Source of the DNA: Nymphaea colorata
Lineage: Eukaryota > Streptophyta > Magnoliopsida > Nymphaeales > Nymphaeaceae
DNA: 64,000 nucleotides
Assembly: GCF_008831285.2 (NCBI RefSeq)
Contig: NC_045140.1
Span: forward strand, 5,249,528-5,313,527
Direction of reading: 5' to 3'
How positions within the stretch are numbered: the first letter of the stretch is position 1; the number at the start of each line of letters is the position of its first letter. The position numbers and the translations under genes were made by a program. Shown here piece by piece: positions 4,005 through 54,587 of this stretch. The notes beneath the pieces were generated by a model, which saw only the letters and a list, made by a program, of their open reading frames with translations, did no database searches and was not told where the DNA came from.

Positions 4005-6262
4005 TTATTGACATCAAGGATGGGAATTATTTCAAAAATTTCCTCATCCAGTCAACATTTTCCACTCCTTTTTATTCCAAAGTACCAAAATATGAAGAAT
4101 AAAAATGACCCTATTGCTTGCAGTGAGGCAGAAACAACATATTGAGCTCCATTTTTATTCTAAATTACACGAACAAAGAACACAAACAAACTCTGCTTCT
4201 CTCAGCAGTATTTGATCTGCAGTACCTTCAGAAGCCACAATTAAAACATCAAACTCGCTTCAGGACTCAGGAGATATGCATGGGTAACGGTGCACTGAGA
4301 GTTGCAAACAATAGAACCAGCCTCAGCTGATCTACCAGTACTCTCCACATGAACAAGTTCCAGTCCTGAAGTGATGGGATCTGTTAAGATCCCTTAAAAC
4401 GATCTCACGGTTAAAGATCAAGGAGATAAACTTTGCGGCAGAATGGCAATCCCCACAAACACGAAGATTTTTTACAACACGAATCGTAGTCCCAGGAGGG
4501 GTATTCAGCAACCCATAAGCAATTGCCAGTTTCTCAGTATGGTACCGAAGCGTTGCCTCCTTTTCCTCCTCCTCCATATCTGCATGGTACAGCTGGGATG
4601 TGTCGGGTACATATCCTACCAATTTCAATTGCTCAACCAATTGATCTAGCATCCCATGAAGCTTTCTGGAGTGAGGGTGTTCTCCGTCCCCTGAGAAGAA
4701 CTAATGAACTGCGTTCTCGATCTCGATTGAACTACAACCAGTGAACCAGGTACTTTAGTAATACCCCCTCTCTTTCATAAGCTTCCTAATTGCCTTCACA
4801 TCGTCCCATCTTCCAGCAGCAGCAGCACATGTTCGATAAGATCACATAGTCTCCACTGTGGGAGAGTTGTACTTCAAAAATATGGTCGACCACGTGTTTG
4901 CCCAACTCTACATTGCCATGAACAGCGCAGGCAGCTAGCAAAGTGCGCCACAGTATAAGTGTGGGCTTGATCGGTAAGCTTCGGACAAACTCATATGCTT
5001 CGTCTAGAAGCCCTGCTCTACCATAAAGATCCACCATGCAGCCGTAGTGTTTAATTCCTGGCTCGATCCCATACACTCTTGACATGCTATCAAAGTACCG
5101 GCGACCTTCCTCCACCAAGCCAGTATGGCTACATGCCATAGAGAACGCCGAGGAACGTGATGTTATCTGGCAGCATGCCTTTTCTCTGCATCTCCTCAAA
5201 GAGCAAGAATGCACTTCTTCCATGCCCATGAATAGCAAAAGCCACAATCATGGCAGACCAAGCCGGTGTATCTCGCTGCGGCATTTCCCCGAAAACCTGT
5301 TTTGCGTCATCTATGCTCCCACATTTGGCATACATGTCAATCAACCTGTGTTGACCTTTACATACACATCAAATCCATTCTTCTTAACATACTCATGAAC
5401 CCAATTTCCAAGCTGAAGGGTACCCAACAGGGCACAAGAGGAAAGCATGCTAAGCAGAGTAACATACGTTGGCCTCATGTCATCCCACGCCTGCATTTCC
5501 CGAAACAGTGCCAACGCTTCATTCGGCTGGCTGTTCCGAGCGTAAGCAGTGATCAAGGAGTTGAAAGAAACAATTTCCCTTCTCCCAGGCATTTTATCAA
5601 ACACTTTGCGTGCGGACAGAATCTGTTCACAATCTGCATACAAATTGATCAAAGTAGGAAGAATGTACACGTTGTCGTCCACCCCAAGCTTGATAACAAG
5701 GCCATGAGTGGCCTCGCCTTCTTTGAGGGCAGTCGCATTGGCACAGGCCTTGAGTACAGAAGGGAAGGAGTAGTGATCAGAAAGCAAGTCCGATTCACGC
5801 ATACGGGCGAAGAGAGAGACAGCACGAATGAGGGGCTGGTGCGGGCGTAGCCACCCATCACTGTGTTGAAGAGGATAACGTCTGGTTGGGAGATTTGCTC
5901 GAACAGGTGGACGGCGAAGTCCAAGGCATCGGGAAGCGTGAAGGAGAAGAAGCGGATGAGCCTGATGACGGATGGAACATCGCTCTGGAGGTTGGTCTTG
6001 ATGATGGTAGCTTGAATCTGCTTGAATTCTTCGATGGTTTTGCATCCTTTCAAGAGACAGAGTGTCCTTTGGTGGGTTTGGCCGTTCTGCCCTTCGAGTT
6101 TCGGCTGGCCGAGGGAGGACGGAGGGTGGCATGGCAGAGTTGTGGACACGGCCATTCCTAGTTGTAACTCTCATTCGAGTAAACTCGGCCACTCTTTTTG
6201 TATTTGGCTTCTCTGAAAGGAGGAGCTACGGCATCACGAGTTTATCGCCAATAGCCAGCTGA
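4005..6262 (-). repeat. Left arm of the inverted PPR duplication
   Basis: This arm is the reverse complement of 12112-14128. The shared part runs from the 3' flank (ending at the segment around 4005-4146) through the whole PPR gene and its 5' flank, ending just after the GCTATTGGCGATAAACTCG segment near 6240-6258. Small indels and one ~300-bp deletion in the right arm separate the copies. Confidence 0.85.
4332..6155 (-). pseudogene. DYW-class pentatricopeptide repeat protein, PPR copy 1 (OTP85-like), frameshifted
   Basis: ATG at 6155-6153; the DYW-type tail ends at 4332 with CSCGEYW and a stop. In between are PPR motifs of the PLS type (for example FNSLITAYARNSQPNEALALF, ALIDMYAKCGSIDDAKQVF in pieces), an E/E+ region and a DYW deaminase domain with HTEKLA (HxE zinc/catalytic site) and CGDCHSAAKF (CxxCH). 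By memory the closest Arabidopsis relative is At2g02980/OTP85, a chloroplast RNA-editing factor. The frame is broken at least four times: one-base deletion near 5836, one-base deletion near 5348, one-base insertion near 5137, and disruption plus an apparent 8-bp insertion near 4730-4745. Some mutations are absent from copy 2, so they arose independently. The gene is intronless like most PPR genes. It could not make a full-length protein, though the catalytic tail itself is still open (4332-4652). Confidence 0.85.
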
Positions 6263-12216: not shown

Positions 12217-13951
12217 ATGGCCGTGTCCACAACTCTGCCATGCCACCCTCCGTCCTCCCTCGGCCAGCCGAAACTCGAAGGGCAGAACGGCCAAACCCAC
12301 CAAAGGACACTCTGTCTCTTGAATGCATGCAAAACCATCGAAGAATTCAAGCAGATTCAAGCTACCATCATCAAGACCAACTTCCAGAGCGATATTCCAT
12401 CCGTCACCAGGCTCATCCGCTTCTTCTCCTTCACTCATCCCGATGCCTTGGACTTCGCCGTCCACCTGTTCGAGCAAATCTCCCAACCAGACGTTATCCT
12501 CTTCAACACAGTGATGGGTGGCTACGCCCGCACCAGCCGCCCCATTCGTGCGGTCTCTCTCTTCGCCCGTATGCGTGAATAGGACTTGCTTCCTGATCAC
12601 TACTCCTTCCCTTCTGTACTCAAGGCGTGTGCCAATGCGACTGCCCTCAAAGAAGGCGAGGCCATTCATGGCCTTGTTATCAAGCTTGGGGTGGACGACA
12701 ACGTGTGCATTCTTCCTACTTTGATCAATATGTATGCAGATTGCGAACACATTCTGTCCGCACGCGAAGTGTTTGATAAAATGCCTGGGAGAAGGGAAAT
12801 TGTTTCTTTCAACTCCATGATCGCTGCTTACGCTCGGAACAGCCGGCCGAATGAAGTGTTGCCACTGTTTCGGGAAATGCAGGCGTGGGATGACATGAAG
12901 CCAACGTATGTTACTCTGCTTAGCGCGCTTTCCTCTTGTGCCCTGTTGGGTACACCCTTCAGCTTGGAAAATGGGTTCATGAGTATGTTAAGAAGAATGG
13001 ATTTGATGTGTATGTAAAGGTCAACACAGCGTTGATTGGCATGTATGCCAAATGTGGGAGCATAGATGACGCAAAACAGGTTTTCGAGGAAATACCGCAG
13101 CGAGATACACCCGCTTGGTCTGCCATGATTGTGGCTTTTGCTATTCATGGGCATGGAAGAAGTGCGCTCTTGCTCTTTGAGGAGATGCAGAGAAAAGGCA
13201 TGCTGCCAGATAACATCACGTTCCTCGGCGTTCTCTATGCATGTAGCCATACTGGCTTGGTGGAAGAAGGTCGCCGGTACTTTGATAGCATGTCAAGAGT
13301 GTATGGGATCGAGCCAGGAATTAAACACTACGGCTGCATGGTAGATCTTTATGGTAGAGCAGGGCTTCTAAACGAAGCATATGAGTTCGTCTGAAGCTTA
13401 CCGATCAAGCCCACACTTATACTGTGGCGCACTTTGCTAGCTGCCTGCGCTGTTCATGGCAATGTAGACTTGGGCAAACACGTGGTCGACCATATTTTTG
13501 AACTACAACGCTCCCACAGTGGAGACTATGTGATCTTATCGAACATGTGTGCTGCTCCTGGGGAAGATGAGACGATGTGAAGGCAATTAGGAAGCTTATG
13601 AAAGAGAGGGGTATTACTAAATTACCTGGTTGTAGTTCAATTGAGATCGAGAACGCTGTTCATTAGTCCTTCTCAGGGGACGGAGAACACCCTCACTCCA
13701 GAAAGCTTCATGGGATGCTAGATCAATTGGTTGAGCAATTGAAATTGATAGGATATGTGCCCGACACATCCCAGGTGTACCATGCAGATATGGAGGAGGA
13801 GGAAAAGGAGGCAACGCTTGGGTACCATAGTGTGAAACTCGCCATTGCTTATGGGTTGCTGAATACCCCTCCTGGGACTACGATTCGTGTTGTAAAAGAT
13901 CTTCGTGTTTGCGGGGATCGAGCCAGGAATTAAACACTACGGCTGCATGGT
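12217..13951 (+). pseudogene. DYW-class PPR protein, PPR copy 2, nonsense mutations and 3' truncation
   Basis: ATG at 12217. The frame matches copy 1 (LFEQISQPDVILFN) but is interrupted by a TCG-to-TAG stop at 12580-12582, a two-base insertion near 12955, a CGA-to-TGA stop at 13392-13394 and a frameshift near 13545-13560. The mutations differ from those in copy 1. In the DYW domain the HxE catalytic motif reads HSVKLA, with Glu replaced by Val, and the last ~40 codons including CxxCH and the terminal EYW are gone. The 3' end is replaced at 13914-13951 by a copy of the gene's own bases 13305-13342. Clearly non-functional. Confidence 0.85.
13914..13951 (+). repeat. 38-bp templated insertion at a deletion breakpoint
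   Basis: These bases repeat 13305-13342 exactly (from GGGATCGAGCC to GCTGCATGGT). They sit where copy 1 instead continues into the DYW tail. GGGGAT is shared by the broken end and the template, so microhomology probably primed the copying. Roughly 300 bases present in copy 1 (about 4147-4448) are missing here. Confidence 0.85.
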
Positions 13952-18627: not shown

Positions 18628-20246
18628 TTATGCATGTTCATAATGGTTTAGCTTATACAATATCACCTTTCCAGCAGCATTTCCTAGGACCATCAAACCT
18701 CCACCCGGACTGAAATCTAAACACTGCACATACTGCAGGTTATGTTTCAGAGGGGGCCAGTTTGAGAATACACTCAGAGATGGTACATGAACCAACTTTA
18801 CGCTATCACGCTTCATGCTTGAAAAGGTGGCCAGGATTTGACCATCATGATTAAACTGCAACCCATCCACTTTAGTAGTTAAATTGGTAAGAGCCTTCAT
18901 TGGTTTTCTTTTGCCTCCAAGAAACTCATCACGGTTATAAACATTAACAATTCCACTATCTGAACCTGTAGCAAAGACAGTACTATCTTTTGAAACGCTC
19001 AATGCAGAGCTATTAATGCAACCATCATCAACCCCCTTGTGGAAGCATTTCCTTGTCCTAAGGTCCCAATGGTAGACAAGTCCATCTCCACCCGAGCTCA
19101 ACAGCTGGTGTCCATCATTAGCAAATGCCAAGGATCGAGCAGTTCCATTCATTTTTAGAGTTCCAATTAGCTGCTTAGATTTAGAAGAGACTAAAAAAAT
19201 ATATCCCTCGTTGCCGGTAAATGCAATAATACTAGAATCAGGGGATACTTCAAACGATTCCAAGCTCTTCTCTTCTCTGCCCATCAATGGGCCTACTCTG
19301 TCAACCTTCGCGTTTACTATATCTAAACTGTAAAAAAATTTCCTTCTTCCACTGATGATGGCCTGTGATCCATCAGGCAAGAATGAAGCTTTACGAATGG
19401 GACAATCCTCAAGAAAATGCTTTGTATCATAGTGTTTCTCTTTCCATCAATCTGAAAGAATCTAAGCTTTTTATCAAGTCCAGCTGTAAGCAACAACTGG
19501 GCATTCCTGTGGAACTCAACTGATGTAATGGGGCCATTTGAAGGGTCCTCTGCATTGCCATCTATCAATCTTGAGAACTCAAGGAGCCCAGGCAATAATT
19601 TTGTTGTGCTCCTTACTACTGCATCCTCACTCGACAAAAGGATGTTGTTGCCATTGGCACCATGACCTTGAGCTCGGACTGATTCATTCTCTTCATCTGA
19701 TTCGTCATCAAAAGCATCTCTCTCAGACTTCCACCCAAGCTCCGCCCACTCAGTTCTGGGGTTCAGCTTAACATGTTGTGACCTTAATCTTGCAACATAA
19801 TCAGCTCCACTGACCAATATCTCACCTTCTTCTCCCCTTAATTTTCTTAGCCTGTTGGTTTTGGCTATGTTGACTTTCGCTATTTGTTCTTCTTCATCAA
19901 TCCATACAGGTTTCCTTGTCTCGTGTGGCTCTCTCTCTTCATCGCTCATGGAAGTTTCACTGTCTACCTCATTATCCTCTTGAAAAATAACATCAACAGC
20001 AGATGACCGATCTTTAGATGAAAAAACACCATCCTCAATTATATCTTCCCCTGTATCTTCTGCCGCCTCTTTACCAAATCCAAAAGAAGAATGAAGAGGA
20101 CCAAACAAGAATCCCTCCAGCTTCTTCATCTCCTGCATCTCACTGGCAACTTTATGTTCCTTCTTTCTTGGCAGAAGCCTCACGTTAGCTTGATTATTGT
20201 CACTTGACCGCTTCCTAGATAGAGCATTCTGAGATACCAAACCCAT
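18628..20246 (-). pseudogene. UTP18: UTP18 copy B, full-length but frameshifted by one base
   Basis: ATG at 20246-20244, stop at 18628-18630. The first ~278 codons follow copy C, with the acidic N-terminal half (EDTGEDIIEDG, DEEREPHE) and the start of the WD40 part. One A is missing from a run of A residues near 19414 (four instead of the five in C and A), which shifts the frame and stops after 307 residues. The remaining 250 codons (19380-18628) are open in the correct frame and closely match C. The break is in a homopolymer, so a read error is possible. The 5' flank has the same likely 3' splice site as copy C (CTCTATGCAG at about 20282) and one copy of the putative first exon region. Confidence 0.85.
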
Positions 20247-23200
20247 CTCAAATTATTAACTTGCCTTGCTTTCACGTGTATCTGCATAGAGAAACAAAAA
20301 TTTGCATCAATTCCCCCGAATTGCAAGAAAACCTTTAGAATGACATTATATCAGTAGACACAAAAAAATAAAGTGCCTTTCCATGCATGCTTCCATGACA
20401 AAATCTATGTCAAACCCATCTTCCAGCTTGTTTATTATGCATTCCAAGAAATGGAAAAATGTAATTGCAAGAAATTGGAACATTAGCTAGACGGAAGCAC
20501 TAAGAATACCATAATAGATAAAACGCACCATAAAGAAAGCTTTTTTCTAGAGGGCTCTACACTTGTGTAGCATAATTAGTTCGAGCCTATATTTATACAT
20601 GTTTATGCCAGAGATATTCTAAATGAAAACAAAAAAATAACTAAACAATTAGAACAATGGATGGCCGAAGCACCTAGCATTCCCCCCCCCCCTTTTTTTT
20701 TCCAACTCACAAGTTGGGGCTAGGCAGCTGCGCGTTTCAAGCAAAGAGGTGTAATGTGGACATCAATGTCGAGAGCTATATCAACTTGATCTGAAATAAT
20801 TCAAGTTCACATGGACTAATTGATCAATCTGCTAAATTTGCAACTATGCTTCGTATATTGGCCCTTTGTGCAGTAACAAACCTGGTCTGTATTAGGTGCT
20901 TGTTCAGTTTACAATGACCAGAGCTCGTTCGCCAATTGTTCAAACTTTTCTGTTCTATAGAATGTTGCCAAGCTAGATCCTGTCCATTTGTGTTCTGAAT
21001 TTTTGTTTTTACAGTGAACTGCAGAAAGCTTTTCAACAGGTCCACGTTAATTCATATTTTGGGGTTCACTTCCTAGTTGGATTCTAAGTTGATTACTAAG
21101 GTTCTCTGTGCCTAGTAGCAGCCTTTATTGCCAACCAATCTATTCATCTGAAGCACATTTATAAAAGGAAGAAACATAAGATGCTGTCAATGTATATAAA
21201 TGGCAAGGCAGACCACAGTCCATCTCACTATGCTAGTTACAGAAACTTGTTGCTTAGATGCATTGTCTCTTTGTTGTACTCCCCTGCTCACTTGTTCTTG
21301 GTCTAAGGATGAAAATTACTTTGCATACAGGGACATTGCGAGATACAGCGTAATGAACAGCATGCCGAACTACAGTTTTCTAACAGTAGTTTCCTCAACA
21401 GAAACTCCAACAAGCACTTCCCATACATTGAAACTTGAGTTTTTTCTAAAGTTTTACTTGGGTACAGGCCCATTGTCAGATCAAAGACAAGATCTTGAGA
21501 TAAAAGTTAATCATGTTCCTACCACACAAAGGCACTACATGCATTCCAAAAATCAACGAATATTGGCATACATTGATTCAGATTGCTCGAGACAGTGCTC
21601 ATTTAAAACATTCATGATTAAATGCTCAGGAAAGTTGCACTCACAGTTGCAAATTTCAAAGCATTGTTCACAGACAAAGAAATAAACTTAATATCGAATC
21701 AAATCAACTACATTATAGTTGCGTTGTAGTTCTGCAATCCCTATCGCATTTTCTAACGAAGTATGTCTCTGCGTTAGGAAAACCTAGCACTCCTCCCACA
21801 AAAACTAAAAAATCACGCTCCCCCGAAGCTCATCTCGCTGTCGATATGTATAAATAAATGGCAAGGCAGACCACAGTCCATCTCACTATGCTAGTTACAG
21901 AAACTTGTTGCTTAGATGCATTGTCTCTTTGTTGTACTCCCCCCCTCACTTGTTCTTGGTCTAGGATGAAATTACTTTGCATACAGGGACATCGCGAGAT
22001 ACAGCGTAATGAACTGAAATAATTCAAGTTCACATGGACTAATTGATCAATCTGCTAAAGTTTCAACTATGCTTCGTATATTGGCCCTTTGTGCAGTAAC
22101 AAACCTGGTCTGTATTAGGTGCTTGTTCAGTTTACAATGAGCAGAGCTCGTTCGCCAATTGTTCAAACTTTTCTGTTCTATAGAATGTTGCCAAGCTAGA
22201 TCCTGTCCATTTGTGTTCTGAATTTTTTTCTTTACAGTGAACTGCAGAAAGCTTTTCAACAGGTCCACGTTAATTCATATTTTGGGGTTCACTTCCTAGT
22301 TGGATTCTAAGTTGATTACTAAGGTTCTCTGTGCCTAGTAGCAGCCTTTATTGCCAACCAATCTATTCATCTGAAGCACATTTATAAAAGGAAGAAACAT
22401 AAGATGCTGTCAATATGTATAAATGGCAAGGCAGACCACAGTCCATCTCACTATGCTAGTTACAGAAACTTGTTGCTTAGATGCATTGTCTCTTTGTTGT
22501 ACTCCCCTGCTCACTTGTTCTTGGTCTAAGGATGAAAATTACTTTGCATACAGGGACATTGCGAGATACAGCGTAATGAACAGCATGCCGAACTACAGTT
22601 TTCTAACAGTAGTTTCCTCAACAGAAACTCCAACAAGCACTTCGCATACATTGAAACTTGAGTTTTTTCTAAAGTTTTACTTGGGTACAGGCCCATTGTC
22701 AGATCAAAGACAAAATCTTGAGATAAAAGTTAATCATGTTCCTACCACACAAAGGCACTACATGCATTCCAAAAATCAACGAATATTGGCATACATTGAT
22801 TCAGATTGCTCGAGACAATGCTCATTTAAAACATTCATATGGTTAAATGCTCAGGAAAGTTGCACTGACAGTTGCGAATTTCAGAACATTGTTCACAGAC
22901 AAAGAAATAAACTTGATATCGAATCAAATCAACTACATTATAGTTGCGTTGTAGTTCTGCAATCTCTATCGCATTTTCTAACGAAGTATGCCTCTGCGTT
23001 AGGAAAACCTAGCACTCCTCCCACGAAAACTAAAAAATCACGCTCCCCCGAAGCTCATCTCGCTGTCGACATCTGTCACCGGCTTTTCACTCTCGTGAAG
23101 CTCCCCTTCCCCACGCTCTTGCCCTTTCCCTCGGCCCTTTTTCATTTGACAGAAACTTGGTTCTTCACCGAGAAACGATTATCAAGAGACTCATTTGAAG

Positions 23201-26883: not shown

Positions 26884-28503
26884 TTATGCATGTTCATAAT
26901 GGTTTAGCTTATACAACATCACCTTTCCAGCAGCATTTCCTAGGACCATCAAACCTCCACCCGGACTGAAATCTAAACACTGCACATACTGAAGGTTATG
27001 TTTCAAAGGGGGCCAGTTTGAGAATACACTCAGAGATGGTACATGAACCAACTTTACGCTATCACGCTTCATGCTTGAAAAGGTGGCCAGGATTTGACCA
27101 TCATGATTAAACTGCAACCCGTCCACTTTAGTAGTTAAATTGGTAAGAGCTTTCATTGGTTTTCTTTTGCCTCCAAGAAACTCATCCCGGCTATAAACAT
27201 TAACAATTCCACTATCCGAACCTGCAGCAAAGACAGTACTATCTTTTGAAACGCTCAACGCAGAGCTATTAATGCAACCATCATCAATGCCCTTGTGGAA
27301 GCATTTTCTTGTCCTAAGGTCCCAAGAGTATATATGCCCATCTCCACCCGAGCTCAACAGCTGGTGTCCATCATTAGCAAATGCCAAGGATCGGGCAGTT
27401 CCATTCATTTTTAGAGTTCCAATTAGCTGCTTCGATTTAGAAGAGACTAAAAGAATATATCCCTCGTTGCCGGTAAATGCAATAGTAGTAGAATCAGGTG
27501 ATACTTCAAACGATTCCAAGCTCTTCTCTTCTCTGCCCATCAACGGGCCTACTCTGTCAACCTTGGAGTTTACTATATCTAAACTGTAAAAAAATTTCCT
27601 TCTTCCACTGATGATGGCATGTGATCCATCAGGCAAGAACGAAGCTTTACGAATGGGACAATCCTCAAGAAAAATGCTTTGTATCTTAGTGTTTCTCTTT
27701 CCATCGATCTGAAAGAATCTAAGCTTTTTATCAAGTCCAGCTGTAAGCAACAACTGGGCATTCCTGTGGAACTCAACTGATGTAATGGGGCAATTTGAAG
27801 GGTCGTCTGCATTGCCATCTATCAATCTTGAGAACTCAAGGAGCCCAGGCAATAATTTTGTTGTGCTCCTTACTACTGCATCCTCACTCGACAAAAGGAT
27901 GTTGTTGCCATTGGCACCATGACCTTGAGCTCGGACTGATTCATTCTCTTCATCTGATTCGTCATCAAAAGCATCTCTCTCAGACTTCCACCCAAGCTCC
28001 GCCCACTCAGTTCTGGGGTTCAGCTTAACATGTTGTGACCTTAATCTTGCAACATAATCAGCTCCACTAACCAATATCTCACCTTCTTCTCCCCTTAATT
28101 TTCTTAGCCTGTTGGTTTTGGCTATGTTGATTTTCGCTATTTGTTCTTCTTCATCAATCCATACAGGTTTCCTTGTCTCGTGTGGCTCTCTCTCTTCATC
28201 GCTCATGGAAGCTTCACTGTCTACCTCATTATCCTCTTGAAGAATAACATCAACAGCAGATGACCGATCTTTAGATGAAAAAACACCATCCTCATTTATA
28301 TCTTCCCCTGTATCTTCTGCCGCCTCTTTACCAAATCCAAAAGAAGAATGAAGAGGACCAAATAGGAATCCCTCCAGCTTCTTCATCTCCTGCATCTCAC
28401 TGGCAACTTTATGTTCCTTCTTTTTCGGCAGAAGCCTCACGTTAGCTTGATTATTGTCACTTGACCGCTTCCTAGATAGAGCATTCTGAGATACCAAACC
28501 CAT
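26884..28503 (-). CDS. UTP18: UTP18 copy C, complete small-subunit processome WD40 protein (539 aa)
   Basis: A single coding exon from ATG at 28503-28501 to the stop at 26886-26884. The N-terminal ~200 residues are charged: basic near RKRSSDNNQ, strongly acidic around 65-110 (GEDINEDG, MSDEEREPHE) and 175-190 (DDESDEENES). A WD40 propeller fills the C-terminal ~300 residues; visible blades include SVEFHRNAQLLLTAGLDKKLRFF and HIYSWDLRTRKC. The length fits plant UTP18 proteins. UTP18 sits in UTP-B with PWP2, UTP6, UTP12, UTP13 and UTP21 and helps assemble the U3 snoRNP on pre-rRNA in the nucleolus. Just upstream, at 28540/28539, is a strong 3' splice site (pyrimidine-rich TTTGTTTCTCTATGCAG), so an intron probably lies in the 5' UTR and the first exon lies far upstream in the 31-33 kb array. 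Of the four copies this is the one shown complete and undamaged. Confidence 0.93.
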   Translation of the reverse strand: MGLVSQNALSRKRSSDNNQANVRLLPKKKEHKVASEMQEMKKLEGFLFGPLHSSFGFGKEAAEDTGEDINEDGVFSSKDRSSAVDVILQEDNEVDSEASMSDEEREPHETRKPVWIDEEEQIAKINIAKTNRLRKLRGEEGEILVSGADYVARLRSQHVKLNPRTEWAELGWKSERDAFDDESDEENESVRAQGHGANGNNILLSSEDAVVRSTTKLLPGLLEFSRLIDGNADDPSNCPITSVEFHRNAQLLLTAGLDKKLRFFQIDGKRNTKIQSIFLEDCPIRKASFLPDGSHAIISGRRKFFYSLDIVNSKVDRVGPLMGREEKSLESFEVSPDSTTIAFTGNEGYILLVSSKSKQLIGTLKMNGTARSLAFANDGHQLLSSGGDGHIYSWDLRTRKCFHKGIDDGCINSSALSVSKDSTVFAAGSDSGIVNVYSRDEFLGGKRKPMKALTNLTTKVDGLQFNHDGQILATFSSMKRDSVKLVHVPSLSVFSNWPPLKHNLQYVQCLDFSPGGGLMVLGNAAGKVMLYKLNHYEHA

Positions 28504-31071
28504 CTCAAATTATTAACTTGCCTTGCTTTCACGTGTATCTGCATAGAGAAACAAAAATTTGCATCAATTCCCCCGAATTGCAAGAAAACCTTTAGAATGA
28601 CATTATATCAGTAGACACAAAAAAATAAAGTGCCTTTCCATGCACGCTTCCATGACAAAATCTATGTCAAACCCATCTTCCAGCTTGTTTATTATGCATT
28701 CCAAGAAATGGAAAAATGTAATTGCAAGAAATTGGAACATTAGCTATACGGAAGCACTAAGAATACCATAATAGATAAAACGCACCATAAAGAAAGCTTT
28801 TTTCTAGAGGGCTCTACACTTGTGTAGCATAATTAGTTCGAGCCCATATTTATACATGTTTATGCCAGAGATATTCTAAATGAAAACAAAAAAATAACTA
28901 AACAATTAGAACAATGGATGGCCGAAGCACCTAGCATTTACCCCCCCCCCTTTTTTTTTCCAACTCGCAAGTTGGGGCTAGGCAGCTGCGCGTTTCAAGC
29001 AAAGAGATATATAAATTGCATATCATCTCTCTCTATAGAGAAACAAATTCAGCAGCTTAAAGAAACTGATTGATAACAAGTTTTGACTTTTGAAGTTTGC
29101 TTGTTTGCAGTGTGATGAGAACAATTGACCTAAACGCCTAAACCTATGTCACATAGGGTACGGGTGCAGGTAAATTTTCCTTTTTCTTGTTTCAGGCCAT
29201 GTTTGATATGGCCTGGAATTTTTTTGAAGGGTAAAAAATGTATAGTTTGATAGACAGGAAGATTTTTTCATGGAAAATTTTTTTTACCGTTCAAATTTTT
29301 TGCTATGAATGAAGGTCAACTTTTAATGTGGACAAGAGCTATATCAACTTGATCTGAAATAATTCAAGTTCACATGGACTAATTGATCAATCTGCTAAAG
29401 TTGCAACTATGCTTCGTATATTGGCCCTTTGTGCAGTAACAAACCTGGTCTGTATTAGGTGCTTGTTCAGTTTACAATGACCAGAGCTGGTTCGCCAATT
29501 GTTCAAACTTTTCTGTTCTATAGAATGTTGCCAAGCTAGATCCTGTCCATTTGTGTTCTGAATTTTTGTCTTTACAGTGAACTGCAGAAAGCTTTTCAAC
29601 AGGTCCACGTTAATTCATATTTTGGGGTTCACTTCCTAGTTGGATTCTAAGTTGACTACTAAGGTTCTTTGTGCCTAGTAGCAGCCTTTATTGCCAACTA
29701 ATCTCTTCATCTGAAGTACATTTATAAAAGGGAGAAACATAAGATGCTGTCAATATGTATAAATGACAAGGCAGACCACAGTCCATCTCACTATGCTATT
29801 TACAGAAACTTGTTGCTTAGATGCATTGTCTCTTTGTTGTACTCCCCTGCTCACTTGTTCTTGGTCTAGGATAAAATTACTTTGCATACAGGGACATCGC
29901 GAGATACAGCGTAATGAACTGAAATAATTCAAGTTCACATGGACTAATTGATCAATCTGCTAAAGTTGCAACTATGCTTCGTATATTGGCCCTTTGTGCA
30001 GTAACAAACCTGGTCTGTATTAGGTGCTTGTTCAGTTTACAATGACCAGAGCTCGTTCGCCAATTGTTCAAACTTTTCTGTTCTATAGAATGTGGACAAG
30101 CTAGATCCTGTCCATTTGTGTTCTGAATTTTTGTCTTTACAGTGAACTGCAGAAAGCTTTTCAACAGGTCCACGTTAATTCATATTTTGGGGTTCACTTC
30201 CTAGTTGGATTCTAAGTTGACTACTAAGGTTCTTTGTGCCTAGTAGCAGCCTTTATTGCCAACCAATCTCTTCATCTGAAGTACATTTATAAAAGGAAGA
30301 AACATAAGATGCTGTCAATATGTATAAATGGCAAGGCAGACCACAGTCCATCTCACTATGCTATTTACAGAAACTTGTTGCTTAGATGCATTGTCTCTTT
30401 GTTGTACTCCCCTGCTCACTTGTTCTTGGTCTACGATGAAATTACTTTGCATACAGGGACATCGCGAGATACAGCGTAATGAACAGCATGCCAAACTACA
30501 GTTTCTAACAGTAGTTTCCTCAACAGAAACTCCAACAAGCACTTCCCATACATTGAAACTTGAGTTTTTTCTAAAGTTTTACTTGGGTACAGGCCCATTG
30601 TCAGATCAAAGACAAAATCTTGAGATAAAATTTAATCATGTTCCTACCACACAAAGGCACTACATGCATTCCAAAAATCAACGAATATTGGCATACATTG
30701 ATTCAGATTGCTCGAGACAGTGCTCATTTAAAACATTCATGATTAAATGCTCAGGAAAGTTGCACTCACAGTTGCAAATTTCAAAGCATTGTTCACAGAC
30801 AAAGAAATAAACTTAATATCGAATCAAATCAACTACATTATAGTTGCGTTGTAGTTCTGCAATCCGTATCGCATTTTCTAACGAAGTATGTCTCTGCGTT
30901 AGGAAAACCTAGCACTCCTCCCACGAAAACTAAAAAATCACGCTCCCCCGAAGCTCATCTCACTGTCGACATTTTCGATCTGTCACCGGCTTTTCACTCT
31001 CGTGAAGCTCCCCTTCCCTACGATCTTGCCCTTTCCCTCGGCCCTTTTTCATTTGACAGAAGCTTGGTTCT
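28504..31071. other. Upstream region of UTP18 copy C: putative 5' UTR intron
   Basis: No coding gene recognised. 29021-29340 is not shared with unit 1 at the equivalent place and may be an insertion. The rest is shared with the B unit. Confidence 0.45.
29356..30480. repeat. Internal tandem duplication, C unit (565-bp period)
   Basis: Block 29356-29917 is repeated from 29918; both begin GAAATAATTCAAGTTCACATG. The first block ends within the GAGATACAGCGTAATGAAC segment where the second begins. The join sequence AATGAACTGAAATAATTC is the same as in the B unit at 22010-22027, so this recombinant join predates the segmental duplication. Confidence 0.8.
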
Positions 31072-33405
31072 TCACCGAGAAACGATTATCAAGAGACTCA
31101 TTTGAAGACATGGATCATCACAAGCCACCAACCAAGAACAATATCAAAACACTGCTTAAAGACCTCAACTTGCGAGGCTCCCCATGAAGTCGCATGAAGG
31201 GAAAGACAGAAAAGAAAACGTACAGACCATTTGAAGGACCACGGCGACGAATAGAAAAAGAAAGAACGCACAATAGGGAGAGAGGGGTTGGCGTACCTCA
31301 ACTTCTTCGAAGGACCACGGCGATGGCTGGAGGCAGAGCGACGGCGGTGGCGCACAGCGAGCGGTCAAAGAAGATGTCAGAGAGTCGAATGAGGAGTCGA
31401 GCAAGACCTAACGGGCAAAACAACTTTTTGCCAGGAGAAGTTTACCCTGCATTTCATTTTCCACCGAGAAACGATTATCAAGAGACTCATTTGAAGACAT
31501 GGATCATCACAAGCCACCAACCAAGAACAATATCAAAACACTGCTTAAAGACCTCAACTTGCGAGGCTCCCCATGAAGCCGCATGAAGGGAAAGACAGAA
31601 AAGAAAACGTACAGACCATTTGAAGGACCACGGCGACGAATAGAAAAAGAAAGAACGCACAATAGGGAGAGAGGGGTTGGCGTACCTCAACTTCTTCGAA
31701 GGACCACGGCGATGGCTGGAGGCAGAGCGACGGCGGTGGCGCACAGCGAGCGGTCGAAGAAGATGTCAGAGAGTCGAATGAGGAGTCGAGCAAGACCTAA
31801 CGGGCAAAACAACTTTTTGCCAGGAGAAGTTTACCCTGCATTTCATTTTCCACCGAGAAACGATTATCAAGAGACTCATTTGAAGACATGGATCATCACA
31901 AGCCACCAACCAAGAACAATATCAAAACACTGCTTAAAGACCTCAACTTGCGAGGCTCCCCATGAAGCCGCATGAAGGGAAAGACAGAAAAGAAAACGTA
32001 CAGACCATTTGAAGGACCACGGCGACGAATAGAAAAAGAAAGAACGCACAATAGGGAGAGAGGGGTTGGCGTACCTCAACTTCTTCGAAGGACCACGGCG
32101 ATGGCTGGAGGCAGAGCGACGGCGGTGGCGCACAGCGAGCGGTCGAAGAAGATGGCAGAGAGTCGAATGAGGAGTCGAGCAAGACCTAACGGGCAAAACA
32201 ACTTTTTGCCAGGAGAAGTTTACCCTGCATTTCATTTTTCACCGAGAAACGATTATCAAGAGACTCATTTGAAGACATGGATCATCACAAGCCACCAACC
32301 AAGAACAATATCAAAACACTGCTTAAAGACCTCAACTTGCGAGGCTCCCCATGAAGCCGCATGAAGGGAAAGACAGAAAAGAAAACGTACAGACCATTTG
32401 AAGGACCACGGCGACGAATAGAAAAAGAAAGAACGCACGATAGGGAGAGAGGGGTTGGCGTACCTCAACTTCTTCGAAGGACCACGGCAATGGCTGGAGG
32501 CAGAGCGACGGCGGTGGCCCACAGCGAGCGGTCGAAGAAGATGTCAGAGAGTCGAATGAGGAGTCGAGCAAGACCTAACGGGCAAAACAACTTTTTGCCA
32601 GGAGAAGTTTACCTTGCATTTCATTTTTCACCGAGAAACGATTATCAAGAGACTCATTTGAAGACATGGATCATCACAAGCCACCAACCAAGAACAATAT
32701 CAAAACACTGCTTAAAGACCTCAACTTGCGAGGCTCCCCATGAAGCCGCATGAAGGGAAAGACAGAAAAGAAAACGTACAGACCATTTGAAGGACCACGG
32801 CGACGAATAGAAAAAGAAAGAACGCACGATAGGGAGAGAGGGGTTGGCGTACCTCAACTTCTTCGAAGGACCACGGCAATGGCTGGAGGCAGAGCGACGG
32901 CGGTGGCCCACAGCGAGCGGTCGAAGAAGATGTCAGAGAGTTGAATGAGGAGTCGAGCAAGACCTAACGGGCAAAACAACTTTTTGCCAGGAGAAGTTTA
33001 CCCTGCATTTCATTTTTCACCGAGAAACGATTATCAAGAGACTCATTTGAAGACATGGATCATCACAAGCCACCAACCAAGAACAATATCAAAACACTGC
33101 TTAAAGACCTCAACTTGCGAGGCTCCCCATGAAGCCGCATGAAGGGAAAGACAGAAAAGAAAACGTACAGACCATTTGAAGGACCACGGCGACGAATAGA
33201 AAAAGAAAGAACGCACGATAGGGAGAGAGGGGTTGGCGTACCTCAACTTCTTCGAAGGACCACGGCGATGGCTGGAGGCAGAGCGACGGCGGTGGCGCAC
33301 AGCAAGCGGTCGAAGAAGATGGCAGAGAGTCGAGTGAGGAGTCGAGCAAGACCTAACGGGCAAAACAACTTTTTTCCAGGAGAAGTTTACCCTGGATTTC
33401 ATTTT
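31072..33405 (-). repeat. Six-copy tandem array, 389-bp unit
   Basis: The reference point ATGAAGGGAAAGACAG recurs at 31194, 31583, 31972, 32361, 32750 and 33139, exactly 389 bases apart each time. The units differ by only a few substitutions, so the expansion is recent. The equivalent place in unit 1 (around 23165-23545) has one copy. On the minus strand each unit has a potential splice donor GTTGAG/GTACGCC (nearest the far end at 33242/33241, others at 389-base steps). CT-rich leader-like sequence surrounds it, so the unit may contain the UTP18 transcription start and non-coding first exon. Open frames on both strands are by-products of the repeat length. Confidence 0.9.
33236..33400 (-). 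promoter_or_regulatory. Putative UTP18 non-coding first exon and 5' splice site
   Basis: On the minus strand a G- and C-rich stretch (CCGTCGCTCTGCCTCCAGCC) leads into AAGAAGTTGAG followed by the donor GTACGCC at 33241. Paired with the acceptor at 28539/28540 this would form a ~4.7-kb 5' UTR intron. The same donor context occurs once upstream of copy B near 23385. This is an inference from splice-site shape and conservation; there is no transcript evidence. Confidence 0.4.
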
Positions 33406-33883
33406 TCACCGAGGAAAATTTAACCGTGTTTGATAACACCGGTTGACGTTTCTTTCCGATTTAATCAAACGGGTAAGCTCTTGCTAAGGGTGACTTGGGT
33501 AAGCTTTGATTTATTTGACTGATTCAAATTCCTCAACCTTCCACCTCACATCAAATCGTCGTCAACCCCCACAACCTAAGTATCACATAAAGCCCAACGC
33601 ACTTGGGTTCTAGACTTGTGTTTCCAGTTTTAATGACGAACCAGAATCAGTTTTCCAGGCAAAATTCAAAACCTGGTTTCACTTATAAAATAAGGTTTTT
33701 CCAGTCTTTGAATGTCGTCAAAATTGGGTTTGGAAAAAATGCAGTTTTGACAAAACCTAATTTTATAATAAATAGTGAAAAAGCTTCCAATCAAGTTATT
33801 AATAAAAACCAGGTTCTCAAAACCAACAAATCCAGTTTTTAAAATTCATTAACAAACTTAAGTTTTATAAAACCAAGTTTTTT

Positions 33884-48906: not shown

Positions 48907-51472
48907 AACACATTGTTTGTTCATGCTTCTACGTTGTACCTTATTGGATCTCGTCTCCTTTTTATGGTCTTCTCTTTCTGGTAGGAGAGTCATGTATATC
49001 AATTTTTGTCCAAATAATGTTGTTGTTAGCTAACTGTAGTTCAACGGACAGCTGTTGCCTTTATAAGAGCAAATAGCTTTCACCTATGTGCTTGTGGGTT
49101 TCTCTTGGCCATTTTTGAATTTCGTTCAACGTTAACTCCATGCTGGGCTTCTAGTTGAAAAGCTAGATGCAGATGATGACGCATGCAAACTCAGAGGTTT
49201 GATCTCATTCAGTAAACAGAAGGAATCTTGATCATGGAACCAGAAGGGAATTCAGTTATGGCTCCAACTGTTCCGAGTAGCAATTAATATGTGTCAGCAT
49301 CAATCACAAATATCTCCAATATCTTGCATAACGATCCCATGATTTTATTTTATAGGTTGAATAAAATGCTAAAAAATTGTATGTTTATCATTATTGATGT
49401 GTAAATCAGTACACTTGGTTATATTCCTTTCATCAGTTTCATGGTTTGGCATTCCCATTTCACTAAGCACATGGGCATGGTAAACCGCTAGTCAAAGTTT
49501 AATATGAAAATGGTTGGCTTCACTTTGGAAACGTCAGGGACGTTTATCGCTCACCAGGGGGTGCCAGGTCAATGTTTGTAAGTTAGTGACAAGAAGTTGG
49601 TGATTCATATGTTTGCGAAGAATTTGGTCAAAAAAAGAAAAAAAAATACATTTAATGTTCAAATAGTTTTCTTTTCCGGACAGAATTTGGAATAGCTCGC
49701 TGGCCCTTTTGGCTTATGCTAAAGCAATTACAAAAACCTGGTTTCAGAAGCACAAGATCGCTGGTCCCTTATGCCTATATCTAACTCTTCCCTTCACTTG
49801 ACCACACCTCAAGGTATGCCTCCTCTTTCTATTTCAGTTTATCATTTTTCCCATCTACAAGGTCATAGTGAAGAGGGAGGGCATGACCTCCCCCAGGCTT
49901 CATTCAGCTACATGCTTCCCAATTGACTAACCAAAGATGGGGTTCCTCTAAATCTCAGAATCAGGCCCTTTAACAACAATTAAGTCGATAATATATCATC
50001 ATCATCCAGATAGGGTTAAGAGTGGGGATTCGTGCCATTAGCTTAATCACCATCTCAGAAGCAATGCAGGATTGATGGATGAGAATTGGAAGGAAACAAC
50101 GGAAAAGACTTGTGCAGCTTTCCTTGCAAAATAAAATTGATTTCTTGGTGAAAAAGGGAAGACCTTGCGGCTATGAAAGAGGGAGAGTCCAGTGTTGGGC
50201 ATGAATATAAATACCATGGCTAACGACGTGCCTTTTGTGGCATCAATCCAGTTTGACCTCATCTCCCTCCTAAAAAAGGATATGTTCGATATTAGTTTCT
50301 TACTGGATGTGTGAGTTAAGGATATGGTGATTGAATGTATAGCCAAAAGAAGTGGTTGTTCATGGTGAATTCTAGCATTGATATTTTTAGATGGCCTAGC
50401 AGGGGTATTTTGCCTCTGGAATCCCAAACATATCTTCCTTTTAAGCAGTATGAAATCCAGGCAGTAGTTTGATGGATCATTCTCTATCTTAAATCTTGGT
50501 CTTAAAATTTAATGGTTGGTGTGCACCTCCCAACTACCCTTTTCACAGAATAAAAGGTCTCACAGAGCTTGGATAAAGGTTGTTTCCTTTACTTTTCCCT
50601 GACTTTAATGCAATGTGAAAGGTTCTGTGGCAAAACTAAAAGACCCCCAAACCCACCCTTGTGCAGGGCTTTTAACAGTTTTGTTGATAGATGCTGGCTA
50701 ATGTAGATTGAACACCCTTTAAGTCTTTTCCCTTGATATATTTGAAGGAGCAAAAGGGACATTTTCAATGTAAACTTAATTGGTGTTTTCTTGACCAAGC
50801 ACTGGTGCCCTCCAGATGCTTCATGGTCTCCCATGCCAAACCCATTTTAGAACATAAGGCTTTTACTTTCCATGCTTTCAATACTAGCAGTAGCTCGAGG
50901 TCTCAAAACTACCATTCCTTTATTCATATATCATGGAAGAAGAGTGTATGTAGATCAATAGCAGAGGCAGGTGTGGGTTGCTGTGGAAATTTGCCCATAC
51001 CATTCTACACAAATTGCCTTATTTATATATTGCTATAGCCATATGCTTTATTACTTATATGCAAGCGCCTCTTAAAGTTTAAAATTTGAATGATTAGTCT
51101 CTTAGGAAAAAATTCTGGCTCTACCACTCGTGTAGATCCATCATTATGGAGGAATAATATAAAAAGGATGGTGGTTGGCCTATGGTAAGTAAAGTCCTGT
51201 CAACTTAGAACAAGGACTCTTTTGGAAATCTTAAAATCAAATAACCTTATAAGGATCTCACCTCACTTCAAGAATGTATATAACAAGATATGACGAATTT
51301 TATTGAAAGAGACATTGAAATTAGTAACTCTTGGAAGAGAACGCTTCCTTGAAGAAGTAAAGGAGCAAAACTAAAGTGTGGGCGAAGAAGGATACCTGAA
51401 ACACAAAGTGTTTTCAAATGACAAATAAAATTGACAGCCTAGAAGTTGCAGGAGACATTTATCATGATCCTA
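48907..51472. other. Downstream of the O-fucosyltransferase gene, no gene seen
   Basis: The 3' UTR probably covers the first ~200 bases. A minus-strand open stretch at 50047-50834 may be degraded repeat coding sequence but shows no motif firm enough to name. Confidence 0.4.
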
Positions 51473-51481
51473 AAGGCCTCT
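51473..51481. repeat. Target-site duplication, left copy (AAGGCCTCT)
   Basis: Nine bases immediately outside the left terminal inverted repeat. The right copy at 54579-54587 is AAGGCCCCT, one mismatch. Confidence 0.65.
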
Positions 51482-52183
51482 TAGAGGTCGTTTGATTGCT
51501 GTCCATTGGGACAAGACAGACAGAACGTCCTGTCCATCAGACTACTGTCCTGTTCTTATGGACAATGATGTTCATTGTCCACCGTTTGATGATCTTAAGA
51601 ACAAAACATTATGTTCCTCTTGTCCAGCGTTTGTTTTGCATATGTCTGTTCTGTCTGTTCTATCTGGCGTTTGTTTTTGTTTTGTCCGATCATCCGTTCT
51701 GTCTGTTTTAACTTTTACCTATATGAATAAGAATTATAAGCCCTTTTAAATTGACGTGCAATAATGAGATAAGATGCAGGCTATGCACGAACTTAAGATA
51801 TCGAAAACAAGGAACGATGAATAACCTCCACAGTTTCAGACTACATCAATAGCTTGTGCTTTCTATTAGTTTAGAAGTACAACAATAGATAAGAAAATTT
51901 TAAGTACTCCAACTTGGTCGAATCATACCATCTCATAAATTGAGAAGTTGAGATATGCCCTCATCATGAAGAGGGAAAAAAATAAAAAACAAAATCAAAG
52001 CAGACATCCAAAAAAGAAGACTTTTTATTCATTCTGTATGAACATATCTTAATCTTCCTTTTTACATGATTCTTGTACATGTCTTCAAATTGCCATTACA
52101 AAATTAAAACTGAAGAGAGAGAGAGAGGGAGAGAGAGCTCGATGGAGAGCTATGCCAGGAGTCAACAGTTGCCGACTGAGAGT

Positions 52184-52442
52184 CTAGTCTGGCCATGGAG
52201 GCTGCGATGAAGAGGGTGATGCAGGGGGAATGACATCAAGGTCATTGCATGGCAGTAAAGATGAGGACGATGGTGATGGTGATAACGGGGAGGAGGGCAG
52301 CTTCCTTTTGCACGATTGAGCTTGAATCCCCTCTCCTACTTGCTCCACCACCTTCTTCCCAACAAGATAATCCTTCAACCTCTTCAAATCAGAGGGCTTC
52401 ACCGGCTTCACTATGAACTCCTCTGCCCCTTCCTCCAAGCAC
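52184..52442 (-). pseudogene. Captured last exon of a type-A response regulator (ARR8/9-like)
   Basis: The exon begins after a GTAAGTAG acceptor and reads CLEEGAEEFIVKPVKPSDLKRL, the end of the receiver domain with the conserved KP(V) Lys-Pro pair. A Ser/Pro-rich tail follows, ending PPWPD and a stop at 52186-52184. In type-A ARRs this is the terminal exon; they damp cytokinin phosphorelay signalling. The phospho-acceptor Asp lies in missing upstream exons, so the fragment alone cannot act as a receiver. The frame is intact. Confidence 0.85.
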
Positions 52443-53242
52443 CTACTTACACATTCACCATATGCTTAGAAGCAGACTCAATAAATACAAACTAGAAACT
52501 GATAATCGAAAAAGAAATATTGAGGGGCTGGTGTCATCATGTATTCTTTCAAAAAGTCAAAAGTTGTATCTGCACACCAAATTACCAAATGCATGCCTAC
52601 ACTTGCATGCACTAAGGACATTTGGTGTATGAAACATAAAACTGCATATAGGTATCCTGAACGTAACTTTTATATAGCAAGGACTTGGTATGCTCCAGGT
52701 TTTGGAGAGCTGCTTTTTACCAAAAGTGGTTATACATATCCTCAAGAGGATCCTAGGTTCACATATTTCAATCGTTTTATGAACTTTCCAAAAGGAAATT
52801 GAAATAATGTTGTACATGAAAAGGCAACCACACATAAAAGGTATGGCGGTATGGTTATGCATATCAAGAATCACAATAGAAGGATCTCAAGGATGTATAG
52901 TTAAAAGGATGTATAGTTAATGGTAGTCGTTCAAACCAAATGATCTATCTTTGCATAAACCACACTTGAGCCTCAAGCACCATGATTCCATGAATTAGTA
53001 CTTAATGCATCATCAAACATTTTGTAAGCATGATCAAATCAAGAAGAAGACATAATCGTACAGAAAATTTTGAACTACCCATGAATCTGCTTCCCTTTCT
53101 TTTCATTCATGACCTTTTATATTTATAATTACTAAGTCGGAAAATGTAAAGAAAAAGTTCAGGCAGAAAAATCCACCACGGCGAAGTGGCTCTATGCAGA
53201 GAGAGAATGAGAGAGAAGGAGAGAAAGGGGGATGAAGATTAC

Positions 53243-53465
53243 CATGATTATGGCTTTGATGTTATCTCTTGTGAGCTTTATAGAGAGGGCAGCTTCATCC
53301 GGCGCATCCCCTGTTCCTGCAAAGGCAACATCTCCAATAAAGGCTAGAAGCTCGTCCACCTTGTCGGGGTGTTGGTCAGCTTTGCTCCCCATCCTCGCCA
53401 TGTGGTCATCAATGATCCGGTCGACCAAATTAGATAATGTAGATCGAACTCCCCAACAGATTATA
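53243..53465 (-). pseudogene. Captured exon end of a CYP84 (ferulate 5-hydroxylase)-like P450
   Basis: The minus strand reads LVDRIIDDHMARMG, DKVDELLAFIGD and SIKLTRDNIKAIIM, then a GT donor at 53242. This is the segment just before the I-helix oxygen-binding motif, and the splice site falls where CYP84/F5H genes split (IKAIIM/D..GGTET). Only this part was captured; the heme-binding Cys region is absent. The frame is open across the fragment. Assignment to the CYP71 clan is firm, to CYP84 likely. Confidence 0.8.
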
Positions 53466-53949
53466 TAGGAAAGAAATTCAATGAGATCCAGAGAACAACA
53501 AAACAAAATGAAGAGGAAAAGATTGTGATGTTGCTAAATAGAACGAATCTTCAAAAGAAAATAATAGGCAAAAACAAAACTGACCAAAAGGGATCGCTTT
53601 TATTTTCCAGATGGAAAAAAAATCAGGAAGAAGTTCCAAGACTAAGAACATCAACTAAAGACTCCTTTTCGTTCTCCACCAACACATACTAAAAGGGGAA
53701 ACCAAATACTACAAGCGAAAGACAAACTGGAAATAGAAACAGCCATTTCTTTCATCGGTTTTAGGGGCAATAGTCACTCACTCGTTGGAAGAATGAAAAG
53801 AAAACATCGGTGGAAAAAGGAACTGATTCAAGATCGCACCGAATCACAGATTTAAAAACGAAAAACCTAGATTGAATCATTAGAAAACAATCTAACGAAC
53901 AAAGACATATAATCAGAAACGAATATCATAACTTCCTTTTAATCAATAC

Positions 53950-54143
53950 CTCGGCTGCGAGATACTCGAGCATGGAAAAGAGGTAGAGCGGCGCACCCGC
54001 ACCAACTCGCTCAACATACTTTCCGGCTTTGAGAAATCGGGCGATCTACCCACCGGAAATTGCAGACTGGCCTTCTGCGACCGAAATACCGACTTAGATG
54101 ACTTCAGTTTCCCATGCCCGCCCTTGGTTCCTATAGAACTCAT
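53950..54143 (-). pseudogene. Captured first exon of a histone H2A gene
   Basis: ATG at 54143 begins [19 protein letters not shown] and continues [12 protein letters not shown]. One base missing after GGTAGA shifts the frame; in the next frame it continues with the H2A histone fold ([26 protein letters not shown]). A GT donor follows at 53949/53948, matching an exon end. The captured piece brings its own start codon and probably some promoter to its right (54144-54250). Confidence 0.85.
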
Positions 54144-54399
54144 CCTCCTTTTCCTTGCGGAAGACGATAACATAAGATGCAGGAAAGCCGAAGACGATGG
54201 AGAAGGAGAGCAAACTAGATTGATCGGTGACAGATTTCGCAGCTAAAATATACAGTGATCTTTCGACGAGGGCGAGGGTGAGGGCAGCTCGGGGGCAGAG
54301 ACGGAGAAGAAGGAGAGAAAGAGAAAGGGTGACCAGCTCGCCAAAGAGACGGAGGAGGAGGAGAGAAAGCGAGGGCCGATCGGGGGCAGGAGGCTGTTC

Positions 54400-54443
54400 T
54401 GTTCCATGCTGTTCCGAGGGTTAGCTCGAAACAGCATGGAACA
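54400..54443. repeat. Hairpin-forming inverted repeat inside the right subterminal region
   Basis: Arms TGTTCCATGCTGTTCCGA (54400-54417) and TCGAAACAGCATGGAACA (54426-54443) pair with one mismatch around an 8-base loop. Confidence 0.85.
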
Positions 54444-54578
54444 AAGAATAATTTATAGTCCCTGTCCAACTGTCCGTCGTGTCCATCCTGTTCTGTGGAC
54501 GGTGTTTGATGTAAAACTCAATGGAACAGAACACGCGTGTCCTGTTCCGTGTGTCCTGTGACCATCAAACGCCCTCTA

Positions 54579-54587
54579 AAGGCCCCT
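54579..54587. repeat. Target-site duplication, right copy (AAGGCCCCT)
   Basis: Nine bases directly outside the right terminus; eight of nine match the left copy at 51473-51481. Confidence 0.65.

Follow-up and report, generated by a model that had tools for sequence, protein, structure and literature searches.

Published Pack-TYPE elements include members of the PIF superfamily that have TTA/TAA duplications and captures from multiple loci (Gisby and Catoni 2022, PMC8903248); the water lily does not figure among the species named in the passages of that paper drawn upon here. In soybean, the CACTA element Tgm-Express1 interrupts the F3H gene, in which its five fragments are spliced as cassette exons, as was proved with cDNA (Zabala and Vodkin 2007, PMC1947982). 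Over 3,000 Pack-MULEs have been counted in rice, some of them expressed as chimeric transcripts (cited in the review PMC13317346). For animal Pack-TIRs, in which the duplicated regions have a median length of 224 bp, a template-switching model named FoSTeST has been proposed (PMC8277862). In the literature library searched, no paper combined Nymphaea colorata, Harbinger and transposable element, and on N. thermarum annotation the search led to two papers, both on other plants.

The element described here lies in a 64-kb stretch of the Nymphaea colorata genome (407.8 Mb in total), C3:5249528-5313527, which was analysed as a whole and is referred to as the window. It is very probably a non-autonomous PIF/Harbinger Pack-TYPE element that took up pieces of four unlinked genes, was mobilised after their assembly and has a probable right-end promoter for its sense cargo. 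This reading builds on the element itself, its siblings, the parent loci, the orientation, the splice borders and the transposase matches in relatives, and it extends to promoter function, transcription, splicing and the order of capture as probable or possible steps.

Structure and copies of the element

The features of the element and its flanks are given in window coordinates:

51470-51483, no strand: left copy (14 bp) of a flanking near-repeat, CTAAAGGCC-TCTTA, which includes the 9 bp of the preliminary description
51481-51483, no strand: left flanking trinucleotide TTA (family target site TWA), unequal to the right one here
51484-54576, minus strand: whole element, 3,093 bp, non-autonomous, PIF/Harbinger-type, Pack-TYPE, delimited by siblings, ends and flanks
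51484-51496, plus strand: left TIR, GAGGTCGTTTGAT, where homology starts in the scored genomic copies
51497-51984, plus strand: left subterminal region of the element family, with TGTCC/TGTTC repeats
51985-52514, minus strand: captured type-A response regulator (RR) segment with the end of the last intron, acceptor AG (52444-52443), last exon (52442-52184, ending in TAG) and 3'UTR
52515-52529, no strand: 15-bp filler between the intron piece and the response regulator segment
52530-53070, minus strand: fourth captured segment, a sense intron piece of an unrelated gene
53068-53424, minus strand: captured CYP84 segment with the end of exon 1, donor GT (53242-53241) and the start of intron 1
53422-53466, minus strand: stretch of ~45 bp between the H2AX and CYP84 segments, common to the C7 element
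53467-54192, minus strand: captured H2AX segment with 5'UTR, exon 1 (ATG at 54143, 1-bp deletion), donor GT (53949-53948) and the start of intron 1
54452-54457, minus strand: TATAAA ~120 nt inside the right end, pointing inward, candidate core promoter
54564-54576, minus strand: right TIR, GAGGGCGTTTGAT
54577-54579, no strand: right flanking trinucleotide TAA
54576-54591, no strand: right copy (16 bp) of the flanking near-repeat, CTAAAGGCCCCTCTTA

Both ends carry the same 13-bp TIR, GAGGKCGTTTGAT, which is short as in the PIF/Harbinger superfamily, and the termini read GAGGKCG in a GAGG...CCTC layout. The inverted ends GAGGTCGTTTGAT and GAGGGCGTTTGAT of the preliminary description stood up as the sole two matches with 0 mismatches among 33 found in the 64-kb window at up to 3 mismatches. 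The termini were also found on other elements. With the first 201 bp of the element as query, 346 first-look candidates yielded 40 scored left ends genome-wide, the window copy included. Matches at these 40 places start at query base 1-3, with one at base 8, and two additional pieces lie next to the copy on C13. Of the 39 other places, 20 were retrieved for comparison.

Four full-length siblings with the identical cargo set, L009-L012 on C14, C11, C11, and C6, respectively, are 97.5-98.7% identical to the window element. Pairwise substitutions among the five young copies amount to 0.7-1.5%, and the window copy and L010 group together against L009, L011, and L012. With a sixth, older and decayed copy on C13 (L034, ~89% identical to the window element), six copies with full cargo are known in the N. 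colorata genome, the window's included. The old copy has an extra left segment of ~970 bp, which is common to L021 and L023 (90-93%) and to L019 (86-92%). The element is bounded by TIRs, non-autonomous and multicopy, and its host gene fragments have parents elsewhere, all of which characterise Pack-TYPE elements. Siblings at other sites and unlinked parents bear out the earlier proposal of a mobile element with captured exons of unrelated genes.

Ends of family members also occur side by side. At L015:3421-3866, the ends of two members abut, left end to left end, and near position 5311 of L012 a TIR lies beside the left end of a family member. Composite elements could arise from such a layout. 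A stretch of ~945 bp at L037:2812-3756, with the related ends GGGGTCGTTTGATGG...CATCAAACGGGCCC and TTA flanks, is located ~500 bp away from the H2AX parent sequence that was captured and is possibly a related short element.

Target sites and superfamily

Flanks were compared for 15 copies, from which L028 was left out with its right end not located, giving 13 copies besides the window's. Identical TTA or TAA trinucleotides, and thus a 3-bp TWA duplication, lie directly outside the TIRs in 12 of these 13, the only exception being L020 with TAA/TAC. The window copy is flanked by TTA/TAA and the C7 element by GTA/TTA, neither of which is a clean duplication, and the old copy L034 is flanked by TGA/TGA.

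Pack-MULEs are characterised by 9-bp target duplications. A 9-bp duplication, AAGGCCTCT/AAGGCCCCT, had been put forward as the insertion footprint, and its 8 of 9 matching bases at the window copy would suit a Mutator-like Pack-MULE. However, the four siblings match at 1, 1, 2, and 5 of the 9 positions and thus lack a Mutator-type duplication, the 3-bp TTA/TAA is found instead in 12 of the 13 other copies, the TIRs measure ~13 bp, and relatives carry DDE_Tnp_4. The 9-bp footprint was therefore abandoned, and a Pack-MULE is extremely improbable. The 9-bp repeat belongs to the longer flanking near-repeat CTAAAGGCC(CC)TCTTA, and a same-register repeat is absent from the flanks of the siblings. 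This near-repeat and the unequal TTA/TAA around the window copy perhaps stem from two insertions that lay close together and exchanged sequence. For the insertion at 51484-54576, a paralogous empty site was sought in the genome with the left flank, which is single-copy, and none was found.

A genome search for PF13359 (DDE_Tnp_4) gave 150 scored matches from 307 candidates. Five of the 40 left ends, all identified by their left ends alone, have such a match ~1.0-1.4 kb inside (C11 three times, C10, and C9), where ~0.02 would be expected by chance (150 x 40 x 1.5 kb / 408 Mb). All five matches lie on the element-minus strand and run right to left within the element. In L027, the DDE_Tnp_4 exon is open for 172 aa, which we take to resemble a plant Harbinger transposase. 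In the reading frames of nine copies, no transposase was recognised by eye. Autonomous PIF/Harbinger copies carry a second, Myb-like ORF. Judged from the TWA flanks, the short TIRs and the DDE_Tnp_4 matches in related left ends, the element fits the PIF/Harbinger superfamily. The CACTA class, to which Tgm-Express belongs, was also considered and was rejected, as the TIRs of CACTA elements begin with CACTA and the ends here read GAGGKCG. Rfam and tRNA scans of the 64-kb window gave no matches.

Origin of the captured segments

Three captured gene fragments had been listed in the preliminary description. All three were recovered, and the count had to be corrected, as 52530-53070 is a fourth segment from an intron on C6. 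Protein searches upheld the earlier identities and showed the H2A fragment to be H2AX-like, the P450 to be CYP84A1-like, and the regulator to be of type A. The best protein match of the CYP84 fragment is a CYP84A1-like protein of Nymphaea thermarum (78%, E 2.6e-25), and the regulator fragment matches N. colorata LOC116258377 at 93%. A recheck of the letters placed all fragments in sense on the minus strand with native exon borders. The first exon of H2A contains its ATG and donor as described, but its own frame is broken by a 1-bp deletion relative to the parent, which is present in all six full-cargo copies.

A genome search with the element interior located the sources of all four pieces. 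The H2AX parent is located at C3:25294165-25294965 (25.29 Mb), and its exon 2 ends with SQEF. The CYP84 parent at C2:19600305-19600661 (19.60 Mb) is 90% identical and has a long exon 1, followed by an exon 2 that begins with DVMFGG. The source of the intron piece lies at C6:1360234-1360744 (1.36 Mb, 87%). This piece appears to be a sense intron, sitting between two exon-like frames on the same strand in a gene model drawn by eye. The response regulator parent lies at C8:21953736-21954292 (21.95 Mb, 85%), and its exon matches LOC116258377 (P0152, P0153). P0152, the isoform X1 of LOC116258377, has a different N-terminus and is without a listed Pfam domain, and its last exon is the one captured by the element. 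An AATAAA occurs at 52029-52024 (minus strand) in the regulator segment. Capture of this poly(A) signal from the parent was rejected, since it is absent from the matching 600 bases of the C8 parent locus. Over the CYP84 exon (window 53243-53417), 7 of 175 sites differ between the window copy and L009, which belong to the two sibling groups, and this is more than in the other cargo outside the left end, which differs by 0-2.1%.

With parents on C3, C2, C6, and C8, the fragments are not neighbours elsewhere in the N. colorata genome. An ancestral host locus in which the segments were already adjacent and which was mobilised later has next to no chance of being the source, as the parents are unlinked, homology stops at the element ends, and relatives exist with only one of the captures.

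The segments are joined by 3-bp overlaps (CGA and TTT), the 15-bp filler, and the ~45-bp stretch at 53422-53466. An element on C7 (L036 and L059) consists of the right end, an H2AX piece, and the shared 45-bp stretch, beyond which it has other sequence and no CYP84 part. Its H2AX piece is 86% identical to the parent and 76% to the window and is without the 1-bp deletion. L042 combines the left end with part of the RR 3'UTR. Stepwise acquisition together with exchange between elements is the simplest reading of this series, the alternative being that C7 and L042 arose by loss from a complete ancestor. Under stepwise acquisition, the pieces of the four unlinked genes would have been copied into the element one after another, probably with H2AX as the first capture, and the finished element would then have been moved by the transposase of related copies.

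Right end and direction of the captures

TATAAA occurs within the first 260 nt of 21 out of 23 right ends, siblings included, and all 21 lie at 96-123 nt. It also occurs in 4 out of 20 left ends, at 220-235 nt, with three of these being one shared motif. After removal of close siblings, 12 of 16 right ends have TATAAA within a few bases of its place, a retention surpassed only by TIR and TIR-like words. Hexamer retention alone singled out the motif, which ranked 154 of 231 and 117 of 144 by column-wise conservation, partly owing to a one-base shift in its position. The right end probably supplies the promoter that drives the transposase in transposase-bearing relatives. Transcription through cargo of matching orientation would run right to left and could yield, in this order, a 5' exon, a donor, intron pieces, an acceptor, a last exon, and a 3'UTR.

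Eight interiors from the 20 loci were scanned with Pfam (L014, L017, L018, L019, L021, L024, L026, and L028). A FLZ zinc finger in L024 and kinase exons in L026, with PK_Tyr_Ser-Thr in one frame, exceeded the cut-off on the element-minus strand, and both were counted as captures. Matches below the cut-off were left uncounted, namely EXPERA in L014 (element-minus) and zf-RVT in L017 (element-plus), the latter of which, if real, goes against a shared orientation. PDB and Pfam searches with the element's own three fragments returned only weak H2A matches, and padded protein searches did identify them. Pfam thus has little power to recognise cargo as short as this, and captures could easily have been missed in the other six interiors.

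All six counted acquisitions, from three element groups (four in the element described here and one each in L024 and L026), are in the orientation of the transposase, for which the two-sided chance is 0.03 if they are independent. This counts against the view that the splice-ready order arose by coincidence from captures with no preferred place or orientation, the cargo being silent, decaying junk. That view competes with the transcription-unit part of our reading only.

Conservation and coding potential of the cargo

Identity to the parent was 89.6% in the exon and 90.3% in the intron for CYP84, and 88.7 and 91.3%, respectively, for H2A. In the RR segment, the exon (93.7%) is only slightly above the intron (90.3%) and the 3'UTR (91.7%), and identity to the source reaches 93.5% for the C6 piece, which is intron throughout. 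The CYP84 differences from the parent comprise 13 in changed codons and 6 in synonymous ones, while those of RR comprise 6 in changed codons and 10 synonymous, a count that includes change in the parent line. Most of the cargo looks as if it evolves neutrally. A protein function is unlikely for most of it, with the RR part as a possible exception, since exon identity exceeds that of the introns in neither CYP84 nor H2A and only slightly in RR, the codon differences are as given, and the frame of the old copy is broken.

The lack of better conservation in the CYP84 and H2A exons, the excess of changed codons in CYP84, and the H2A deletion, found in the six full-cargo copies and absent from the C7 element, all favour a coincidental order. 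Against it stand the shared orientation of the captures and the distribution of replacements in a N. thermarum protein described below. We regard coincidence as neither more nor less probable than its opposite.

The splice-ready order of H2AX donor, CYP84 donor, and RR acceptor found support, and these splice sites are unchanged in all five young copies. When the native H2AX donor is joined to the native RR acceptor, the predicted product is an open, in-frame chain of 150 aa in each of the five. The 1-bp H2A deletion brings the donor into the phase of the acceptor, which as a one-in-three chance event is weak evidence. In three of the five copies (L009, L011, and L012), a frame that starts with MLF in the leader of the right end continues into H2A; it is stopped in the other two (window and L010). 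The old copy L034 has a broken chimeric frame.

In N. thermarum, the annotated protein P0151 (209 aa) contains the leader, the H2A start, and the RR exon, with its model joining within the H2A exon, before the native donor. Compared with the L009 chimera, 2 of 83 residues differ in the RR part and 13 of 115 in the leader and H2A start (Fisher P 0.027). This contrast was chosen after the alignment had been seen, and L009 has replacements of its own. Among the best 120 of 236 matches, no protein of chimeric layout was noticed in N. colorata.

Going by the order of the segments in the DNA, a hybrid H2AX-RR message could be made. A working hybrid gene, with an H2AX start and a response regulator tail under selection in Nymphaea, would account for the common frame in the five copies, the annotated N. 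thermarum model with its fewer replacements in the RR part, and the surplus of synonymous RR differences, parent-line change included. Against it, translation past the deletion leaves the native H2A frame, the frame of the old copy is interrupted, two of the five copies have a stop in the leader frame, and the N. thermarum model joins elsewhere in the H2A exon, so that we consider a working gene of this kind under selection quite improbable.

Other features of the window

Two near-alike WD-repeat reading frames lie at 18628-20252 and 26884-28509 (minus strand), one of them split and the other open over 541 aa, as a local duplication; they presumably resemble the nucleolar protein Utp18. Two copies of one gene region, which we take to be PPR-like, occur in opposite orientation at 4786-6225 (minus strand) and 12924-13394 (plus strand). 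A 389-bp unit is repeated six times at 31071-33413 with 98% identity, and a piece of it is, by eye, seemingly also present near 23.2 kb.

Discussion

In an early-branching flowering plant, five young copies, an old complete one, and two elements that hold either the H2AX capture alone or part of the RR 3'UTR thus form a series with the parents. It makes the stepwise joining of exons from unrelated genes by transposons accessible to direct testing, along with a possible influence of the promoter of a transposon on which of its captures are retained. A far-reaching extension would see the family as a directional gene assembler, in which a right-end transposase promoter causes sense captures to be kept and a splice-compatible order to be favoured, maturing into transcribed hybrid genes, with an H2AX-RR hybrid shared by N. 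colorata and N. thermarum under weak selection. We consider this extension rather unlikely.

Like the Harbinger-PIF Pack-TYPE elements (PMC8903248), the water-lily element is a non-autonomous TIR element with host gene fragments. It differs from them, as far as the cited passages go, in its four segments in gene-like 5'-to-3' order with native start, donor, acceptor, and 3'UTR. Tgm-Express1 (PMC1947982) is close in layout, with several unrelated host gene fragments in one element, and its captured splice sites make chimeric RNAs, whereas the water-lily element is known here from DNA. The two differ in superfamily, CACTA against PIF/Harbinger, and the water-lily element has its own start and terminal exon. 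The rice Pack-MULEs share the capture of gene fragments but are Mutator-like and depend on another transposase. The animal Pack-TIRs (PMC8277862) are likewise multicopy chimeric TIR elements, though of animals, and template switching as proposed for them would fit the microhomology and filler at the junctions of the water-lily element. The element thus belongs to the known Pack-TYPE (Pack-PIF) kind and stands out within it by the gene-like order of its captures and by its possible intermediates.
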